Assembly (NCBI RefSeq): GCF_004214895.1
Contig: NZ_CP035952.1
Location: 3,048,501-3,112,500 of the forward strand
DNA length: 64,000 bases
Direction: 5' to 3'
Source of the DNA: Pseudomonas tructae
GTDB taxonomy: Bacteria; Pseudomonadota; Gammaproteobacteria; Pseudomonadales; Pseudomonadaceae
Below are positions 52,812-63,285 of this stretch, piece after piece. How positions within the stretch are numbered: the first letter of the stretch is position 1; every line of letters starts with the position of its first letter. The position numbers were made by a program, and so were the translations under genes. The notes below the pieces were generated by a model, which was given only the letters and a program-made list of their open reading frames with translations, was not told the DNA's origin and made no database searches.

Positions 52812-54170
52812 TCAGACACTCAATTGCAGGTACTCACGTTCCCATGCACTGATCACCTGCTTGTAGTTGTTGTGTTCGGTACGCTTAACGGCGACGTAGC
52901 CTTGCACGAACCTGTGCCCGAGGTGCTCCTTGAGCACTTCGCAATCCTCCAATTGCACCAGCGCGTTCTCGAGCGTGCTCGGCAGGCGCAGACCGCGGCA
53001 GTCGTAGGCACGTCCTTGCACGGGAGCTGAGGGGTTGATCTGTTCGATCATGCCCAGATAGCCGCAGAGCAGGCTGGCGGCCAACGCCAGGTAAGGGTTG
53101 GCATCAGCGCCCGGGAGGCGGTTCTCCACGCGCGTGGCGGCCGCTGGCGCAGCTGGAACACGCAGGCCTACGGTGCGGTTCTCCTCACCCCACTCAACGT
53201 TCACCGGGGCACAGGCGTCCGGCAGGAATCGGCGGAACGAGTTCACATTGGGCGCAAGCAGGGGCATCAGCTTCGGCGTGTATTTCTGCAGGCCGCCGAT
53301 GTAATGCAGCAGCCGCTCGCTCATGGCACCCTCTTTTCCGGCGAAAAGGTTCTTGCCTGTGGCCACGTCCAGTACGCTCTGGTGGATGTGCATTGCACTG
53401 CCGGCCTCGTTGGCGATCGGCTTGGCCATGAAGGTTGCGCTGAGCGCATGCTTGAGCGCGGCCTCGCGCAGGGTGCGCTTGAACACAACCAGTTGGTCAG
53501 CCAGGTTCAGGGCGTCGCCGTGACGAAAGTTGATTTCCATTTGTGCAGGGCCGCCCTCATGGATCAGCGTATCCAGGTCCAGGCCTTGGGCCTCGCACCA
53601 GTGGTAGAGGTCTTCGAACAGCGCGCTGAATTCGTTGGCCGCATCGATGGAAAAGCTTTGCCTGCCTTTTTCAGGTCGGCCTGACCGGCCTTCAGGGGGC
53701 TTGAGCGGCAGGTCCGGGTCGCTGCTGGGCTTGGTCAGGTAGAACTCCATTTCCGGCGCGACGACCGGCCTCCAGCCTTTGTCGGCGTAGAGTTTGAGCA
53801 CACGCTTGAGTACGTTGCGCGGCGACAGCTCGATGGGATTGCCGCGCTTGTCGAACGTGTCGTGGATGACCATGGCGGTGGGTTCAGCGATCCATGGCAT
53901 GAGGAACATGGCATTTGCCGCAGGGCGGCAGATCATGTCGACGCCTGCCTCATCGAGCAGGGCGTAGAAGACCTGGTCCTCGACGAAGTCGCCGGTCAGC
54001 GTCTGCAACAGGACGCTTTCCGGGAGTCGCATGCCACGTTCCTCGAGGAATCTGCTGGTCGAGGAAAGCTTGCCGCGGGCGATGCCGGAAAAATCGCTCA
54101 CGACACATTCGACTTCGGTGATGCCTTGATACTTGAGCCGTTGCTCCAACTGCTCGGTGGGGGTGTTCAT
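52812..54170 (-). CDS. Glutamine synthetase-family gamma-glutamylpolyamine ligase
   Basis: 452-residue GS-family enzyme of the polyamine/ethanolamine branch (PuuA/SpuI type), shorter in its N-terminal domain than housekeeping GlnA. Visible landmarks: VAPEMEFYLTKP (metal Glu), QMEINFRHGD, AMHIHQSV and LPGADANPYLALAA (Arg/Asn active-site region). It would join glutamate to putrescine or a related amine with ATP, the first step of the gamma-glutamyl polyamine degradation route. It is convergent with the sensor kinase. It is probably core-genome DNA and marks the left border of the acquired segment that follows. Confidence 0.9.
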   Translation of the reverse strand: MNTPTEQLEQRLKYQGITEVECVVSDFSGIARGKLSSTSRFLEERGMRLPESVLLQTLTGDFVEDQVFYALLDEAGVDMICRPAANAMFLMPWIAEPTAMVIHDTFDKRGNPIELSPRNVLKRVLKLYADKGWRPVVAPEMEFYLTKPSSDPDLPLKPPEGRSGRPEKGRQSFSIDAANEFSALFEDLYHWCEAQGLDLDTLIHEGGPAQMEINFRHGDALNLADQLVVFKRTLREAALKHALSATFMAKPIANEAGSAMHIHQSVLDVATGKNLFAGKEGAMSERLLHYIGGLQKYTPKLMPLLAPNVNSFRRFLPDACAPVNVEWGEENRTVGLRVPAAPAAATRVENRLPGADANPYLALAASLLCGYLGMIEQINPSAPVQGRAYDCRGLRLPSTLENALVQLEDCEVLKEHLGHRFVQGYVAVKRTEHNNYKQVISAWEREYLQLSV

Positions 54171-54395
54171 GTAGCACTCTCGAGAACGCGAAGATGTGCC
54201 AAAAAGGGTATTGGGTTGCGTATCAAGTTGCTGTCGGTTTTCTTTTGGCGAGCGTAAATTCTTGATAAAGCGTCCGAGGTCTCACTGCGCAGGGGGGGGC
54301 GAGCTGGGCCTCTACCAGTGGATGGGATCTAAAATCACTGATGAGCTATGTGGGCTGGAGGGACGTAAAATCTGCATTGCGCTATGTCGATACTA

Positions 54396-54806
54396 GGTTC
54401 TGTCTGAAAAAAGGTGTCGCAGACACCGCATGACGCAAGCCAGTGAGACCATCGCGCCATAACTTTTTGCGAGCTTGTCGAAGCGTGTCACGAGTCGGCG
54501 GTTCTCGTTCAGCCAACCGAACATACGCTCGATCACATTGCGTTGGCGGTACTTTGGGCGATCAAACAGGCGAGGCAATCCAGGCTTGGGTTTGCGCTTC
54601 ATCGAACGCAAAGGAATAACCGGCTGCATGCGGTATCGGTCACAGAAACGCCGCAGCGCATCAGCGTCGTAGCCCTTGTCGGCCAAAAGCCAGCGGCAGC
54701 GCTTGCGAGGTCGACCGCGTTTGCTCATCGGGATGCAGACATCGTTCAGCAATGGCTGTGCGTAGCTGATATCGCTGGCTTGACCGCCAGAAAGGAGAAA
54801 GCGCAA
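54396..54806 (-). pseudogene. IS5-family transposase, C-terminal fragment
   Basis: About 136 residues of an IS427-type DDE transposase: LADKGYDADALR (a catalytic Asp) and YRQRNVIERMFGWLNENRRL (Y-(2)-R-(3)-E-(6)-R type signature with the catalytic Glu). The N-terminal ~120 residues with the first Asp are missing, and the reading frame has no normal ATG start. It cannot be active alone. Confidence 0.8.
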
Positions 54807-55137: not shown

Positions 55138-55863
55138 TCACAGTTGTGGATAAATCCGCTCATACAATTGCACGTCGGAAGGGCAGTCAATTTCGCCCCA
55201 CGGCGCATTTGTGGGTGTCCCGCCGACCCGTACACCCGCCTCAATCAGCAAGGAAAACAGCGAGGTCATATCAACTTGTTCACGCTGCTCGATGTTCAGC
55301 CGTTCCAGTTGACCATTGAGTGCATGCCAACCCGCCGGCGTCAACTTGAACAGCCCCATGTATTGTCCCTGGATCTGCTCCAGCGTTTCGGCACGATGGC
55401 CGATTTCGCAGATCCTGCCGTTATCGATAACAAATCGCTCCATGTCATCCAGAGGTTGATCGAAGCGCTGCTGCCAGAGTTTCACCGCCTGGGGATCAAA
55501 TGCCAGATCGATATCCTCGTCTTTTTGTATCAGGGCACTGACCAGTTCAGGCGAATAGAAAATATCGCCATAACTCACCACGCACGCCTGCGAGTCCAGC
55601 CATTCATGGGCCGCACTCAGCGACTGGCGAATTCCCGTTGTGCTCCACAGTGGGTTGATAAACAGCCGATCGGCATAGGGCGCGAGCATGTCGCTGCGAT
55701 AACCCGCGACAATGCCGATCTCGGTAATACCTGCGGCACGCAAGGTACGAACTGTTCGCTCGATTAACGGCATGCCGTTGAACGTCACCAGTGCCTTGGG
55801 CCACTGATCAGTTAGCGCCCCCAATCGGCTGCCACGTCCAGCCGCAAGAATGATTGCCTTCAT
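55138..55863 (-). CDS. Nucleotidyltransferase, probable CTP:phosphoglutamine cytidylyltransferase
   Basis: 241-residue sugar-nucleotidyltransferase-like protein with AAGRGSRLGALTDQWPKALV (GxGxR...PK nucleotide-binding motif) and VSYGDIFYS (metal Asp). Such small enzymes transfer CMP to phosphocholine, phosphoethanolamine or similar phosphates. The last-gene position, coupled by an ATGA overlap to a C26 hydrolase and a PEP-synthase-like kinase, reproduces Cj1416-Cj1417-Cj1418 of Campylobacter jejuni, where Cj1416 makes CDP-L-glutamine from CTP and phosphoglutamine. I therefore predict that reaction. The alternative is a LicC-type phosphocholine or sugar cytidylyltransferase. Confidence 0.8.
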   Translation of the reverse strand: MKAIILAAGRGSRLGALTDQWPKALVTFNGMPLIERTVRTLRAAGITEIGIVAGYRSDMLAPYADRLFINPLWSTTGIRQSLSAAHEWLDSQACVVSYGDIFYSPELVSALIQKDEDIDLAFDPQAVKLWQQRFDQPLDDMERFVIDNGRICEIGHRAETLEQIQGQYMGLFKLTPAGWHALNGQLERLNIEQREQVDMTSLFSLLIEAGVRVGGTPTNAPWGEIDCPSDVQLYERIYPQL

Positions 55864-56462
55864 GGTGAAACTCCATAAACCTGGCGGACCAAGGAAAGGT
55901 CAGCACTGTCCCAATGTTGATTACGTTCGGGGTGCCACATCACGGCGCTATGACCTGCGCCGGGGTTGCTGACGGCTTCGATTACACCGTCCTCACTGAC
56001 TGCCTCGACTTCATAGCCAGGTGGCGCGGCATAAAAGCCGTAATCGTGAAACGAGTTGACCCGACGAACCGCGCCGTGACAGTGAATGTCGTGGGCGCCT
56101 ACGTGGGATGCAACGGGCTCCAGCGTTGCCCCGGCACGGCTGAGCATCACCTGCATTCCACGACAGACGCCCAGGACTGGAAGGCGATGCTGTAGAGCCC
56201 ACGCCATCAGCATGGCTTCGGTTTCATCTCGCGGGTCGGCAATACCCGACAACGCCTGACAACTGCCGCCCCCGGTCAATAGCACACCCTGCGGCTGAAG
56301 CCGCGCCAGCAGGTCGCGACTGACGTGGGCATCATTGGGCATGTAAAGCGGTAGCACCCCGCAATGAGACAGAAAGGATGTCCAGCGCCCATCAATCGCA
56401 TCCCTCCACTCCTCTCGCGTTGTATCGAACAGCCGAAGCATGGTGACGGCTATCAAGGTCAC
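55860..56462 (-). CDS. C26-type amidotransferase-like hydrolase, probable gamma-glutamyl-CDP-amidate hydrolase
   Basis: 200-residue class I glutamine amidotransferase-fold enzyme with catalytic triad C100 (LGVCRGMQ), H177 and E179 (WHPERNQ). Generic annotation would call it a gamma-glutamyl-GABA hydrolase (PuuD). Its position between the kinase-like gene and the cytidylyltransferase, with 4-bp ATGA overlaps on both sides, and its length match Cj1417 of C. jejuni, which cleaves glutamate from CDP-L-glutamine to leave cytidine diphosphoramidate (CDP-NH2). That role is inferred from family and context. Confidence 0.82.
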   Translation of the reverse strand: MTLIAVTMLRLFDTTREEWRDAIDGRWTSFLSHCGVLPLYMPNDAHVSRDLLARLQPQGVLLTGGGSCQALSGIADPRDETEAMLMAWALQHRLPVLGVCRGMQVMLSRAGATLEPVASHVGAHDIHCHGAVRRVNSFHDYGFYAAPPGYEVEAVSEDGVIEAVSNPGAGHSAVMWHPERNQHWDSADLSLVRQVYGVSP

Positions 56463-58819
56463 GACAGCACCTGGATACGCCGTTCAGCACAATCGAGAAT
56501 TAACCGTGTACTCGACAGCAAACTACGAAACTTCGCCTCCCCGACGCCGATTGCAGCAGGGATGGCAAATTCCCGGGCACGGATCGACATGTGAGAGTTT
56601 TCGCCGCCGTAAGCGGTAATGAACCCCGCGATACGGTGAGTGAAAATCCAGTCGAAACCAGGGTCGGCGCTCTCGATCAGCACAATGCAGCCTTCGATGT
56701 TGCGCTTGCTGGTTTCTTCTGCCCGCAACACCGCCACTGGCGCGTTAGTCGCACTGCGGGTGATGAAGTTCGGATTGCACGTCTCGATGGCGTGGGACAG
56801 CAAATCCTGAGGCTTGCAAACAATGACCGGGGTGCGGATACCCTGAGTCGACTGCCACCGCACTCGGTTGTTGGCGATCTGGTCGCGAATCATCTCCAGC
56901 CGAACCTCTTCAAGGTTGCCGACAAAATCGTCAAGCCTTGCAAAACTCAACTCTTCGCGATTCAGCTGATGACTCTCCCCCCAACTGCCGAGCGCCTTGA
57001 GGGCTTGCGAGACGAAAGCACCGTACAAGTATTTGACCTTCTCCCGGGCGGCGACAGCGGCATCGAGAAACTTGAAAAAGTGTTCGGCCGATACGCGTAG
57101 CTGACACTCGTCGAAGGCTTGTTGCACGGCATTGCGGATTTCATGACTGATCACCCGCGGCCCCTCATCGCGATGGGCCCGTTGCAGCGGCGTATTCCAG
57201 TCGAAATAGGCGTCGGGGGTTTCATCGTATCGGGCCACGCGCAAATCGTAGGTGCCGGGACGTACATGGCCGTGCAGACGCAAAAACGCTTCTTTGTGCA
57301 GTATCCGGAAGTCGTCGGCCATCTTGCGTCCGACGGTGCATACGCCGCCGATCAGCGAATCCGTGAAACCCGCTGGAATTCGCTGCATGGTTTCCAGCGA
57401 CTTGATGACCGCGGTAGCAACAAATGCCGCCCGCGCTACGCCGGAAAAAACTTCCCCTACCACCTTTGCGTCAGCCAGGGAGTGACGCAATCGCTGAAGC
57501 GGATCCTCGCTCTGCTGATGGCTGCCCAGTCTTTCGACTTTTTGTTCAATCCGGGGGAGTCGCGTCAGGTCCGAAAAAAACGGCCCATCGGCGCTGATGA
57601 TGTGCTCGGTAACGCTCTTCAGTTCTGCCAGATAGAGCGCATGCTGAGCCGCGTTCAATCCGTTGAAAGCTGGAATTGACCCCGCGGGCATGGCCGCCAG
57701 TTGTGGTGTAAAGCATGTGGGAATAATCGAAAACTCAATTTTGTCGTGCAACGACTGGTGAGCTGCCAGGTGTTCACAACACTCCGTGACCACCGAGTTT
57801 ACGATCGACAACGGCAGCGCCGCTGGAATGAACGACTCCACGCTGTAGGGAATGCAGATGTACGGTGAACCACTGAACTGATACATCAATGGTTTGTTGC
57901 GCATGTCGCGGTAGCCGTAGCGGAACCGCGCCGACGCCCAATTCACATCGGTGATCAGCTCCTTGTAAAGCGAGTACGCCAGCGGTCGCGGCTTGACGCC
58001 AATCATCTCGGCTGGATTCCAGTCCGGCATCAGCCCCAAAAAGGCATTGAAGCTGTGCTCGGGCTCCCGCGTCTTTCTGTCCATCCCTTCAAGCAGCACC
58101 ACCTCCGAATCCAGGACCGAACGCAACGCTAGGTCCGAGTGCGGGTCGATGTACTCCACGCCTTGTCCCGTCATCGGCCGAACCTGAAACAGCAGCGGCC
58201 CGCCTTCGGTGATCGCGAACTCGATATCCAGCGCGTCGCGCTCAGTGAGTTGCTCGACTTCGGCCAGCAGGGCGAACAACCCCTTAAGCTCCACCGGTTC
58301 TGAACTGCACTGGGATTTGAGAGCCACAAACGAGTGAACAGTACCGGTGCCGGCGGTGACGCCATCCGTTTCGTGCCCTGGCACATAATCGACCACGTAG
58401 TAAGGCAGGCCGGTTTCTGGATCACGAGTCATCGCTACACCTGACGCCAGCACCCCAGTTGCCATGCTCTGGATCAGCACTTCATCGAAATCGCTGGCTT
58501 GCCCGTAGGAGCAGATCACCTGTTCAATGGCCTGATTCAATGCCACTGCCCCGCGCACATTACCGACCGAATCGTACATGCCGGCTCCCGAGGTGCCATC
58601 CTGATCCTCGGACAGACTGCTGGAGCGCACGATCAATGAATGATCACCGAAGCGCTTTACACAATAATCCAGAATGGCCTGTGGCTTACTGCGCCAGTTC
58701 CTGACCGTGAACCGATGTAATGGCAGCACGCGGCCAGTTTTCAGAAACGGGGCAAGGCTTTCCAGTGTCCCGGCTTTACCGGAAAACTCGAAAGGACCGG
58801 CTAAAGTCATCGACTGCAT
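56459..58819 (-). CDS. PEP-synthase-like phosphotransferase, probable L-glutamine kinase
   Basis: 786-residue protein with an N-terminal PEP-synthase/PPDK-type ATP-binding domain (IVRSSSLSED, then GAGMYDSVGNV, ~70-95; later EFAITEGGPLLFQVRPMTGQ, ~245-265) and, at the very C terminus (~735-750), the phosphohistidine domain motif GGENSHMSIRAREFAIPAAI. The PEP-binding TIM barrel that follows in true PEP synthase is absent, as in Cj1418 of C. jejuni, which phosphorylates the side-chain amide of L-glutamine. The start at 58819 (MQSMTLAG) is chosen because GGAAG lies 5 bp upstream; the frame extends 66 codons further into the ATP-grasp gene end. It forms the first enzyme of a predicted N-P bond pathway. 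Confidence 0.82.
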   Translation of the reverse strand: MQSMTLAGPFEFSGKAGTLESLAPFLKTGRVLPLHRFTVRNWRSKPQAILDYCVKRFGDHSLIVRSSSLSEDQDGTSGAGMYDSVGNVRGAVALNQAIEQVICSYGQASDFDEVLIQSMATGVLASGVAMTRDPETGLPYYVVDYVPGHETDGVTAGTGTVHSFVALKSQCSSEPVELKGLFALLAEVEQLTERDALDIEFAITEGGPLLFQVRPMTGQGVEYIDPHSDLALRSVLDSEVVLLEGMDRKTREPEHSFNAFLGLMPDWNPAEMIGVKPRPLAYSLYKELITDVNWASARFRYGYRDMRNKPLMYQFSGSPYICIPYSVESFIPAALPLSIVNSVVTECCEHLAAHQSLHDKIEFSIIPTCFTPQLAAMPAGSIPAFNGLNAAQHALYLAELKSVTEHIISADGPFFSDLTRLPRIEQKVERLGSHQQSEDPLQRLRHSLADAKVVGEVFSGVARAAFVATAVIKSLETMQRIPAGFTDSLIGGVCTVGRKMADDFRILHKEAFLRLHGHVRPGTYDLRVARYDETPDAYFDWNTPLQRAHRDEGPRVISHEIRNAVQQAFDECQLRVSAEHFFKFLDAAVAAREKVKYLYGAFVSQALKALGSWGESHQLNREELSFARLDDFVGNLEEVRLEMIRDQIANNRVRWQSTQGIRTPVIVCKPQDLLSHAIETCNPNFITRSATNAPVAVLRAEETSKRNIEGCIVLIESADPGFDWIFTHRIAGFITAYGGENSHMSIRAREFAIPAAIGVGEAKFRSLLSSTRLILDCAERRIQVLS

Positions 58820-58895
58820 GTCGTCTTCCATTGATAGAGGTAAATACATTTCATTGTGGGCAGCAATGACCACCAGAAATCGGTATGACAATGAT

Positions 58896-60206
58896 TTACG
58901 CCAGTTCAGGACCGGTGTATTTCGCCAGTTCGTTGCCGTACAGCAAGGACAGTTCAGCCAGAAAACTGTTGCCCTTTTTCGCGGCAGCGTAGGGGCAGCT
59001 GTCGAGCACAATGACATGGCCGATGGTTCCGATATTGCCGGTGTAGACGCTCACCTGCTGACCGGGGACGACATGGGCAGTACAGAACTCGATCTCGTAC
59101 TTATTCAGCAGCGGTTGCAGCGTTCGAGGGTCGTAGCTATCGGCAATCCGTCCGCCATGTCGCGAGGCGATCGTGACCACGGTGCCCGCGGTTTCAATCA
59201 GCGAATCGTCAATCTTGATGATCTCCCCCAAGTGCAGACGGATCAGCATTTCGAATGGATCAATACCGGTCAGCATCCGATACATCTGCGGTGCTACACT
59301 GCCCATCATGCGGGCATTGATCTCTACCAGGCACGGGCCGTTTTCGTCACGGAGCAATTCGACGTGATACAGGCCTATGTCCAGTTTCAAGGCAGTGAAT
59401 ACCTGCTGGATGTAGGCCTTTATTTCATCGCGCGCTGCCGTGTTCAGACCCGATGGCATGGTTGCCGTCATCTCAAGAATTTCGTTGTAGTCGGCGCGGA
59501 AACGAATGGTGGTAACGTAGCACGACACTACCCCGTCCTGAACGATGACTTCAGCAGAGTGCAGCGTACCCTTCACGTATTGCTCGACCAGGTATTCGCG
59601 GCTGACCAGGGCATCTATCATCGGATTGGAATCAGTACGGGCCTGACGGATATTTTCGACGAATGCGTCGAAATCCTGTTGGGTAAAACAGATCGCCGAA
59701 AACTGTTTGGAAAAACCACGTGTGGGTTTGACCACAAACGGCAACGCCAACCGAGGCGCGATGCCTTCGGCCAGTTGGCTTTCGGTCAAGACCTGGAAGT
59801 CGGGAGAACGCACGTTGTTGGCGCGCAAGGTTTCACGCAGACGACTCTTGTAAACAGCGCCGCAAAGGTTTTCATGGCTAGGGTAACGCGTACCGAGCAG
59901 CTCGGCTTCCCGGGCCACGGCAACAATCGCCGCCTCGGACGTAGAGATCAGCGCATCAATTTTTCGAGTGTCGTTGAGCTTTGCCAGCAGATTGTGAAAC
60001 TCGTCCCCCTCAAGCGAATCGACGCGAATGTATTCGTCGACGTGTTTAAGGTACGGCTCGATTTTCGAGTGATCCCCCTTGACTGATATTGTCAGAAACG
60101 ACGTATCGCGCTGGTGAATAAATGTCACATGACAACCCAGGCGCTTGGCAGCTTCAAAGGCGAGCAGGCCACTGACCGTGCTGTCGACCAAAACGACATG
60201 TTTCAT
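58896..60206 (-). CDS. ATP-grasp ligase
   Basis: 436-residue ATP-grasp enzyme: pre-ATP-grasp Rossmann-like start (HVVLVDSTVSGLLAFEAAKRLG), ATP-binding strand LPFVVKPTRGFSKQFS (~175), EQYVKGTLHSAEVIV (~225) and metal ligands in GPCLVEINARMMGS (~295). The overall form is like amino-acid ligases that activate a carboxylate as acyl phosphate and join it to an amine. The ATG at 60206 has GGAG about 8 bp upstream; an upstream frame of 21 codons was rejected. In this operon it probably adds an amino acid to a phosphoramidate-bearing building block; the substrate is unknown. Confidence 0.85.
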   Translation of the reverse strand: MKHVVLVDSTVSGLLAFEAAKRLGCHVTFIHQRDTSFLTISVKGDHSKIEPYLKHVDEYIRVDSLEGDEFHNLLAKLNDTRKIDALISTSEAAIVAVAREAELLGTRYPSHENLCGAVYKSRLRETLRANNVRSPDFQVLTESQLAEGIAPRLALPFVVKPTRGFSKQFSAICFTQQDFDAFVENIRQARTDSNPMIDALVSREYLVEQYVKGTLHSAEVIVQDGVVSCYVTTIRFRADYNEILEMTATMPSGLNTAARDEIKAYIQQVFTALKLDIGLYHVELLRDENGPCLVEINARMMGSVAPQMYRMLTGIDPFEMLIRLHLGEIIKIDDSLIETAGTVVTIASRHGGRIADSYDPRTLQPLLNKYEIEFCTAHVVPGQQVSVYTGNIGTIGHVIVLDSCPYAAAKKGNSFLAELSLLYGNELAKYTGPELA

Positions 60207-60222
60207 GAAGCGCTCCGTATAG

Positions 60223-60840
60223 TTATGCGTGATAGAGGAGAAAACTGCAGAGGGAAAAGACAATCGCAATGAAGGCCACCGTGGGAACGGCCTTGAATTT
60301 CGGCAATTTCAGGTTCGTGACCTGAAGCACGGCAATGAGGAACATCAGCATCAGCACGTCATGAGCGCCGACCCTGCCCGCCGCCACTGACTGGAAAGCT
60401 AGCGCGAACAGCAAACCGGAATAGGTCGTCGGCAAACCGCGATAACCCACCGGGGCGTCGGGGTCATTGATGGCGAAAACAGCTAGGCGCAGTACACCGG
60501 ACAGCACCAGGACAGAACCCGCCAGTACAGCCAGAGATGAAGGGAGCAGCAGGATCAGGACAAGTGCTGGCGCGACACTGAAATTCAGCAGGTCGGCAAA
60601 ACTGTCCAGATGCTTGCCAAACGCGCGCCGTGGCGCGTCGCCGGCCAACCAGGTTCTCGCAATGTGTCCATCGACGAAGTCTAGTATCGCCGCCAAACAA
60701 ATAACACTAGCCGCCCAAGACAAGCGTCCCTGATGCGCCACGACTACCGCCGCAAAAGACAACAGAATGTTTAATGCTGTTACCCCATTAGCCAGATCAA
60801 AAAAACGAACGAACGGAAATATCGGCGCTTTCTGGCGCAT
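60223..60840 (-). CDS. CDP-alcohol phosphotransferase, phosphatidylserine-synthase-like
   Basis: 205-residue integral membrane protein with the full CDP-OH-P signature: D54-x2-D57-G58-x2-A61-R62 then G75-x3-D79-x3-D83, so all four metal-binding Asp are kept. The spacer between R62 and G75 is 12 instead of the classical 8. The following SFADLLNFSVAPALVL is very like bacterial PssA, whose acceptor is L-serine. About five or six TM segments are visible. The family displaces CMP from a CDP-activated donor by an acceptor hydroxyl. Given the neighbours, the donor here may be CDP-NH2 rather than CDP-diacylglycerol; that is inference. Confidence 0.85.
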   Translation of the reverse strand: MRQKAPIFPFVRFFDLANGVTALNILLSFAAVVVAHQGRLSWAASVICLAAILDFVDGHIARTWLAGDAPRRAFGKHLDSFADLLNFSVAPALVLILLLPSSLAVLAGSVLVLSGVLRLAVFAINDPDAPVGYRGLPTTYSGLLFALAFQSVAAGRVGAHDVLMLMFLIAVLQVTNLKLPKFKAVPTVAFIAIVFSLCSFLLYHA

Positions 60841-60871
60841 ATCTCATGACCTTGTAACGTTGGAAAACCTA

Positions 60872-62065
60872 TTAGATAACTTGTTCAGCAGGTTTAAAAC
60901 TGAACGAGAGCAGTAGAGTAGCCGCCAAATAACACACGGCAAAAATAACGCTAGTCCATAGCAACCCAATGTGCTCGACCAATAATGAACCGAAGAATAT
61001 CGTTATAATCATCCCAGCATAAACACCCGCATATTGTACTGACGCAACCAGCGGCATGGCATTGGCCGGTGTTGCCAGCACGACATCGGATTGCAACTTG
61101 AAAAATGCCAATTCAAAGAAAAAGATATAGAAAAAGTAAGCGCCATAGCTAGAGGCCAAGCCTCCACCATAGGCGGCCACCATCATGAACAGTGCGCTGG
61201 CGGCAGCCATGGAAAGGGGCGCCAGTCTGTGGCCACGCTTGTTCAGCTTGTAGTAAAGGATCGCGCCTACCAGGGCGGCCACGCTGTTGACCGCTTGCAG
61301 CAGACCCACATAGCCCTCCGACAAGCCCAGGACATGGGCCGGCAGAATAATCCGCGACACGTTGAAGAAACCCTGATAAACGCTGACGAAAATAATGAAG
61401 CTCCAGAAACTGCGGCGCAGTTGCGGGCTGGTTCTCATGAAATTCGTAAATGTTTTGATCAGCGCCGCAGACTGGGGGGTGGTGGCGGTAGTCGGGCGTT
61501 CCGCGCGGGGCAACAGAAAGGCGGCGAAGCAGGCTATGGAGAACAACACGGCAGTGATTGCCAACGCGTGCCAAGGCATCATATCACCCTTGACCAGTGC
61601 CATTGTAGCACCGGCGATGCCACCGGCAATGAATTGTGCCATCAGGGTCAGCGGAACGGTGGATTCGACATTTGCTGAATTGAAATAGCATTTGATGGCA
61701 ACGATTCGGCCCACCCGCTGCAACGCGTCCAGTGTGCCAATGGCGATACCGCCAAGGATCGCAATCAATGCAACAGTCGGCAGTAACGAATAAACCAACA
61801 CCGCCACCAACAACGCCAAGGCATTGGATAAAATCAATAACGTACGCGGAGAGATCCGATCGGACAGCCTATAAATCTGCCCGACAAACAATACGGGTAA
61901 TACCATGGGTGAAAACAGCACGATCTGCGAATAAAGCAGACTGCCGGTTTCCTTGTAAGTGTAATAAGACAGGTAGATATAACTTAGCGTTGACGCACAG
62001 ATGGCACACAGATTTACGATCCAAATAAGAACCGTAAGACCCTTCAACGAACATGTAGTACGCAT
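60872..62065 (-). CDS. MFS transporter, probable product exporter
   Basis: 397-residue major facilitator protein with about 12 hydrophobic helices and the cytoplasmic loop QIYRLSDRISPRTLL, an MFS motif A-like region. It is the first gene of the six-gene leftward operon, with AGGA about 6 bp before the ATG. Its likely role is export of, and self-protection against, the compound made by the downstream enzymes; uptake cannot be excluded. Confidence 0.85.
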   Translation of the reverse strand: MRTTCSLKGLTVLIWIVNLCAICASTLSYIYLSYYTYKETGSLLYSQIVLFSPMVLPVLFVGQIYRLSDRISPRTLLILSNALALLVAVLVYSLLPTVALIAILGGIAIGTLDALQRVGRIVAIKCYFNSANVESTVPLTLMAQFIAGGIAGATMALVKGDMMPWHALAITAVLFSIACFAAFLLPRAERPTTATTPQSAALIKTFTNFMRTSPQLRRSFWSFIIFVSVYQGFFNVSRIILPAHVLGLSEGYVGLLQAVNSVAALVGAILYYKLNKRGHRLAPLSMAAASALFMMVAAYGGGLASSYGAYFFYIFFFELAFFKLQSDVVLATPANAMPLVASVQYAGVYAGMIITIFFGSLLVEHIGLLWTSVIFAVCYLAATLLLSFSFKPAEQVI

Positions 62066-62254
62066 GTGATTCCTAACCTACAAAATCTCCTACCAACGAC
62101 AGACACGCTATCTTAGTAAAAATAAGATCACAATGGCTTGTAACAAAACCTCATGAATTTCTGAATCGCTCACTTTTTCTGCACTGTTTTGGGGCGAGCT
62201 TGCTATTCGCGTAAACCTCGTTAGGTGGAAAATGCATCTATCGAGGAGGTTTTT
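62066..62254. promoter_or_regulatory. AT-rich leader of the phosphoramidate-type operon and IS3 end
   Basis: The upstream region of the MFS gene is AT-rich and contains the inverted repeat ATCTTA-7-TAAGAT (62111-62129). It probably carries the operon promoter for the leftward genes; no clear -35/-10 pair is defined. The part beyond about 62185 looks like the left end of an IS3-family element. Confidence 0.35.
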
Positions 62255-62401
62255 ATGGTCAACAAACGTAGGACATTCGACGAAGGCTTCAAGCTGCAAG
62301 TGGTGAAGATGATCACGGACCAGGGGCTAACCGTTCATCGAGTTCCAAGCCCGACTGAGAGAGAAAAATTCGAGAGTAGGGAGATGAACGTTCGGTTTTA
62401 A
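62255..62401 (+). pseudogene. IS3-family transposase OrfA, N-terminal stub
   Basis: A GGAGG-preceded ATG opens 48 codons starting MVNKRRTFDEGFKLQVVKMI, typical of the helix-turn-helix start of IS3-type OrfA proteins. Similarity seems to end after about 28 codons (near 62340), where the frame runs into the 3' end of the opposing recombinase fragment. The rest of the element is missing. Confidence 0.65.
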
Positions 62402-62884: not shown

Positions 62885-63285
62885 TTAACTGTCAAGCCGG
62901 CCCCACGCTGCCGAGGCACGCTGCGCATTATGGCGGTTGGCTGACTCGGCTAGATAACGACTTGCATAACGACGTGGCATCGCCGAAGTCTCAGCCCAAC
63001 CGCAGACTCGCCGGAGTTCGTCCGTGGCGCGCTCCAGGTCGTGCCCACGCTGCTCGACCAGGTAAGCCAAGAAGCGGTCGGCAAAAGTGTGGCGAAAGTC
63101 ATGCGCAGAAAAAGTAGTCAACAACCCCGGATGTGCCAGTTCAATGGTCAGAAACAGCCTATCTAGGACGTTAGACAATGCGCGAATCGACAGCGGGCGG
63201 CCTCTGTCAGAGATGAACAGATAGCGGTACGGCAATTTCGTCGGTTTGCCGTCACGTAGAGGGCGCCGTTTGCTCTGGATATAGT
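62885..63285 (-). pseudogene. Tyrosine recombinase, C-terminal catalytic fragment
   Basis: The C-terminal catalytic part of a tyrosine recombinase: LPYRYLFISDRGRPLS, HDFRHTF (HxxR box) and CGWAETSAMPRRYASRYL with the likely nucleophile Tyr. The open frame continues upstream without a start into DNA that on the other strand encodes the kinase-receiver fragment, so the N-terminal part has been lost and the junction lies near 63285. The right end given is approximate. Confidence 0.65.

Follow-up and report, generated by a model that had tools for sequence, protein, structure and literature searches.

Natural products with a phosphorus-nitrogen (P-N) bond are rare. In Campylobacter, Cj1415-1418 convert glutamine, ATP and CTP to cytidine diphosphate (CDP)-phosphoramidate 3'-phosphate (PMC11800397). 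For phaseolotoxin (phtL/phtQ/phtU) and agrocin 84 (agnD1/agnD2), which resemble the present system by description, a PPDK- or phosphoenolpyruvate (PEP)-synthase-like protein, the PPDK-like PhtL in the former case, is only assumed to serve P-N bond formation, and the accessible portion of the source describes no cytidylyltransferase/phosphotransferase route for either (PMC4530439). A comparable PEP-mutase phosphonate cluster with a CDP-alcohol phosphotransferase is pgb of Pantoea (PMC9933511). Here we describe an operon of Pseudomonas tructae that, judged by its sequence, is a new combination of known enzyme kinds. Its six co-directional genes occupy positions 55138-62065, on the minus strand, of a 64,000-nucleotide stretch (the window; contig NZ_CP035952.1, positions 3,048,501 to 3,112,500) of a 5.69-Mb single-contig genome, and are transcribed in the order major facilitator superfamily (MFS) transporter, CDP-alcohol phosphotransferase, ATP-grasp ligase, kinase, C26 hydrolase and nucleotidyltransferase (Table 1). 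All six reading frames listed in a preliminary description of this DNA were found on that strand, and the operon is not reported in the literature searched, which comprised open-licence papers only.

On balance, we favor a reading in which the operon makes and exports a P-N dipeptide, by transfer of a phosphoramidate onto an amino acid, probably serine, followed by ligation to a second amino acid. The last three genes form a trio in which, as in the Cj1416-Cj1418 module, a PEP-synthase-like kinase without a PEP barrel adjoins a C26 hydrolase and a nucleotidyltransferase. The Campylobacter jejuni Cj1415-Cj1418 system, which serves the O-methyl phosphoramidate of the capsule, thus has what we take to be the same three enzyme kinds, likened here by family models and gene order. 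Pfam assigns the kinase a PPDK_N and a PEP-utilizers mobile domain and no PEP-barrel domain, and all three residues of the C100, H177 and E179 triad are in place in the hydrolase, both as the preliminary description had it. The kinase scores 773 bits against NF004508 (cut-off, 501) and carries a GGENSH motif, with H743 as the candidate phosphohistidine. The top NCBIfam model for the hydrolase is NF045546 (gamma-glutamyl-CDP-amidate hydrolase; E = 4.3e-23), but at 82.4 bits against an equivalog cut-off of 250, so that this is not an equivalog assignment; relatives from capsule-type loci (96.5 and 111.9 bits), from Agrobacterium vitis (106.1) and from the most divergent six-gene locus (92.6) also score below 250. 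The NCBIfam ranking, the gene order and the company kept support a trio of the CDP-phosphoramidate type, its kinship with Campylobacter Cj1415-1418 being read from the ranking and the order. The closest named relatives of the kinase and the phosphotransferase are Pseudomonas proteins.

In the proposed pathway, the kinase would N-phosphorylate glutamine to phosphoglutamine, the nucleotidyltransferase would combine phosphoglutamine with CTP to give CDP-Gln, and the hydrolase would cleave CDP-Gln to cytidine diphosphoramidate (CDP-NH2) and glutamate. The phosphotransferase would then use CDP-NH2 and the hydroxyl of serine to form O-phosphoramidyl-serine and CMP, the ATP-grasp ligase would join O-phosphoramidyl-serine to a second amino acid, and the MFS protein would export the dipeptide. 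The predicted fold of the ATP-grasp protein is nearest to BL00235, BacD and RizA; it is likely that this protein most resembles an L-amino acid ligase, the ligation itself being predicted, and the MFS protein is a likely exporter of the product. ATP-grasp genes at 42-55% identity also occur in P. poae, Actinoplanes and Spartinivicinus. We infer every substrate and product of this pathway, and both of the folds compared are predictions. The comparison with phaseolotoxin made in the preliminary description appears apt, because PhtL is likewise paired with ATP-grasp peptide ligases (PMC4530439).

Table 1. Genes of the operon in order of transcription (window positions)
Feature	Position	Strand	Remarks
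MFS transporter, predicted exporter	60872..62065	-	397 aa; PF07690 E 6.6e-13; first gene in 6/6 loci
CDP-alcohol phosphotransferase, PS-synthase-like	60223..60840	-	205 aa; AR-x12-G spacing; predicted phosphoramidate transfer from CDP-NH2 to serine
ATP-grasp ligase, predicted L-amino acid ligase	58896..60206	-	436 aa
PEP-synthase-like kinase, predicted L-glutamine kinase	56459..58819	-	786 aa; PPDK_N + PEP-utilizers; NF004508; GGENSH H743
C26-fold hydrolase, predicted gamma-glutamyl-CDP-amidate hydrolase	55860..56462	-	200 aa; PF07722 E 3.2e-22; C100/H177/E179
MobA-like nucleotidyltransferase, predicted CTP:phosphoglutamine cytidylyltransferase	55138..55863	-	241 aa; PF12804 E 6.1e-20; last gene in 6/6 loci

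The operon is real and conserved, with signs of horizontal movement. A neighbourhood survey of the kind proposed in the preliminary description recovered all six genes, identically ordered, in the window and in five other genomes (six loci), the proteins being 40-98% identical to those of the window. Among 398 genomes of the genus, the kinase is found in 36 (E <= 1e-40), in five of them at 55-100% identity and in 31 at 34-39%, and the phosphotransferase in those same five only (E <= 1e-15), all of which are among the 36 kinase genomes (hypergeometric P = 4.6e-6, a guide only, as the genomes are related). The order kept at six loci and this overlap argue that the set is not a product of chance. 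At E <= 1e-60, with the own genome included, the kinase is seen in 8 of 350 genomes of the class and 15 of 393 of the phylum; among 295 genomes from the order to which Chimaeribacter belongs, the phosphotransferase is seen in one, the Chimaeribacter genome itself. A tree of 173 kinases (midpoint rooted, no outgroup; proteins below 750 aa and locus kinases below 700 aa left out) unites in one clade, with support of 1.0, the six-gene kinases, the A. vitis kinase and 11 of the 12 kinases whose contig is exactly as long as one bearing a phosphotransferase, the twelfth, P0018 (622 aa), having been left out. No kinase with a known APS-kinase-like neighbor or fusion falls in that clade, neighbourhoods having been read for only nine of its members.

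Modeling and conserved residues point to serine as the likely acceptor. The predicted fold of the phosphotransferase resembles phosphatidylserine (PS) synthase by about 6 Z units over the next solved CDP-alcohol phosphotransferase family, and the protein keeps the CAPT aspartates, the serine-site residues Asp62, Ser63, Asp66 and Phe105 of MjPSS and its essential Arg101, although not Arg104. Both the site serine and an LRLxxF block are kept in 30 of the 32 family members (P0121-P0152); one of the remaining two has alanine at the site, and the other, probably a 123-aa fragment (P0151), is without the block. The fold ranking and this conservation weigh against an alternative, which we regard as unlikely, in which CDP-NH2 is made but serves a different alcohol as acceptor, be it glycerol, inositol, a nucleoside or some other amino alcohol, which the ATP-grasp protein modifies differently, to give a phosphoramidate of unspecified skeleton. 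What speaks for such an acceptor is that the solved CDP-alcohol phosphotransferases use several alcohols, that the CAPT motif has a spacing of x12, and not the x8 of PssA, in all 32 family members, and that the protein falls under the cut-off of the pssA model (77 versus 107 bits). Its donor, presumed to be water-soluble, further sets it apart from PssA and MjPSS.

An improbable alternative is that the trio yields some other CDP-activated group, from a kinase substrate other than glutamine, so that the product is not a phosphoramidate. It could draw on the low identity to the 31 other Pseudomonas kinases noted above, on the name of NF004508, which is only "hypothetical protein," and on the same-clade plasmid kinases of Cupriavidus (L114:7962-10325) and Microvirga (L173:7953-10313), near which the profiles recognize no hydrolase or nucleotidyltransferase; yet both partners adjoin the kinase at all six loci, and the best model of the hydrolase is that for gamma-glutamyl-CDP-amidate. 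That the operon serves, as in Campylobacter, to add phosphoramidate to a surface polysaccharide is in our view very improbable. In favor of it, among 62 neighbourhoods, a separate APS-kinase-like gene accompanies the trio in 34, with a methyltransferase in 23 and without one in 11. However, neither an APS-kinase-like (3'-kinase type) nor a methyltransferase gene was matched within the 19-21 kb covered at any of the six-gene loci, for which capsule decoration was therefore rejected; the partner genes there encode an amino-acid-ligase-like protein and an exporter. The preliminary description had noted this very joining of the trio to a phosphotransferase, an ATP-grasp ligase and an exporter, with no 3'-kinase or methyltransferase, and the gene set and profile search bear it out; unlike in C. 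jejuni, capsule genes are also missing nearby.

The neighbourhoods were drawn from 32 of the 36 genus genomes (without G089, G101, G372 and G382), 6 of 7 other genomes of the class (without G765), all 14 other genomes of the phylum, 8 of 16 plasmid matches, an order relative (L062, on an 8487-base contig) and Pseudomonas endophytica (L011). They were classed by custom profiles at E < 1e-20, which distant partners may escape, and the nucleotidyltransferase profile was length-limited for the counts, as fused N-terminal domains of kinases also match it. Besides the 34 above and the six-gene set (6), they comprise the trio whose kinase bears a further, fused nucleotidyltransferase domain (8), the kinase alone, the trio alone and the trio with a methyltransferase (3 each), the trio with a phosphotransferase and LysE, and the kinase with the hydrolase (2 each), and a kinase-fused APS kinase (1). 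The fused loci (L098, L148, L149, L168-L171 and L174), a third kind in which an N-terminal nucleotidyltransferase is fused to the kinase beside a separate nucleotidyltransferase, show no APS-kinase-like match; a weaker fused domain is seen in L117 and L150. At the Cupriavidus and Microvirga loci, two further nearby genes are of like start, annotated in Cupriavidus as a thiamine-pyrophosphate enzyme and a histidinol-phosphate transaminase.

Several parts of the operon recur in phosphonate clusters, where the head group comes from PEP mutase, with a P-C bond, rather than from the kinase trio. In Chimaeribacter californicus, such a cluster (L187:15184-16053 and L186:992-11964) combines a PEP mutase (TIGR02320, 394 bits; cut-off, 320), a PhnW-type aminotransferase and a weakly matching nucleotidyltransferase with a phosphotransferase of x12 spacing, 31% identical to that of the window, and an ATP-grasp protein 52% identical to that of the window; its MFS protein is unrelated to the window's by BLASTP. 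The same genome holds a remnant of the operon (L012:8739-10519), in which the MFS gene is accompanied by a phosphotransferase interrupted by an in-frame stop, and has no good kinase match (best E, 2e-5). Plasmids of Sinorhizobium meliloti (L188) and Mesorhizobium (L189), two of 37 more distant records retrieved with the A. vitis phosphotransferase, carry a PEP mutase-aminotransferase-nucleotidyltransferase-phosphotransferase array. A tree of 31 phosphotransferases places the A. vitis enzyme with its counterparts on the S. meliloti and Mesorhizobium plasmids (0.986), and those of the six-gene loci with the enzyme of the Chimaeribacter phosphonate cluster (0.99). These two separate groupings suggest two independent exchanges of the head group, phosphonate versus phosphoramidate, ahead of one transfer step; we infer that the trio would substitute for the PEP-mutase portion of a phosphonate pathway, feeding a transfer-and-ligate module that both kinds share. 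Production of a phosphonate from the window's own genome was rejected, as none of its three PEP-mutase matches exceeds the TIGR02320 cut-off. The trio, a LysE exporter and a CDP-alcohol phosphotransferase also occur on plasmids of A. vitis (L115:7923-13012) and Allorhizobium ampelinum (L172:8923-14002, with the kinase annotated as two pieces), near AsnA-like and asparaginase genes and, in A. vitis, TauD; these loci suggest another P-N type cluster, with a different build.

A more specific product can be proposed only tentatively, namely, an O-phosphoramidyl-L-serine peptide, which would be isosteric with phosphinothricin (O in place of CH2, and NH2 in place of CH3), would mimic the transition state of glutamine synthetase and, like bialaphos, would be carried as a dipeptide. 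Bialaphos is a dipeptide-carried phosphinate antimetabolite, and the product would be its P-N counterpart, reached through a module fitted at least twice to a phosphonate or phosphoramidate head group. Phosphinothricin inhibits glutamine synthetase (PMC9961378). A glutamine-synthetase-like gene (PF00120) adjoins the operon at 52812-54170, perhaps by coincidence; the genome has two more copies at 69-73% identity. By eye, from reading-frame starts, it is not recognizable beside the operon at the five other loci and is therefore not counted as evidence; a role in self-resistance was not used in our argument for the same reason.

The kinase/hydrolase junction is a GTGA overlap (with a GTG start for the hydrolase) and the hydrolase/nucleotidyltransferase junction an ATGA overlap, so that the ATGA coupling claimed earlier for the whole trio applies to the second junction only. 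The ATP-grasp reading frame spans 58896-60269, with 60206 as its likely start, giving the 436-aa length of the P. endophytica protein. The G+C content is 55.2% in the operon versus 63.1% in window bases 1-50000. Of the mobile-element debris previously proposed at the flanks, a transposase piece (54393-54806) exceeds its Pfam cut-off, whereas an integrase-like piece (62885-63235) falls below (23.4 of 27.1 bits); the piece at 62313-62873 matches nothing in Pfam. At 62250-62330, directly upstream of the MFS gene, a plus-strand OrfA-type frame, presumably of the IS3-type family, appears by eye to begin. Acquisition by transfer, also put forward earlier, fits the low G+C content, the insertion sequence debris and surroundings that, by eye, differ among relatives, but no empty site was found via the left-flank glutamine-synthetase-like gene or the right-flank response regulator in 38 relatives. 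Carriage by plasmids or viruses was rejected: at 1e-5 no plasmid record matches the phosphotransferase of the window, a search for which the A. vitis plasmid enzyme is too distant, and no match in viral contigs was confirmed. The ATP-grasp protein matched 172 plasmid records, at 21-29% identity among the matches listed. A role in anti-phage defence was likewise rejected, none of the six proteins having a PADLOC match.

The operon is a compact set with a testable enzyme for each predicted step, and a route to P-N compounds by transfer to an amino acid and ligation is not reported in the open-licence papers searched. If the favored reading is true, CDP-phosphoramidate would move from capsule chemistry into small-molecule metabolism, the kinase, the x12 phosphotransferase and the ATP-grasp ligase together would offer a search hook for similar compounds, and phosphonate and phosphoramidate pathways would use exchangeable parts in common.
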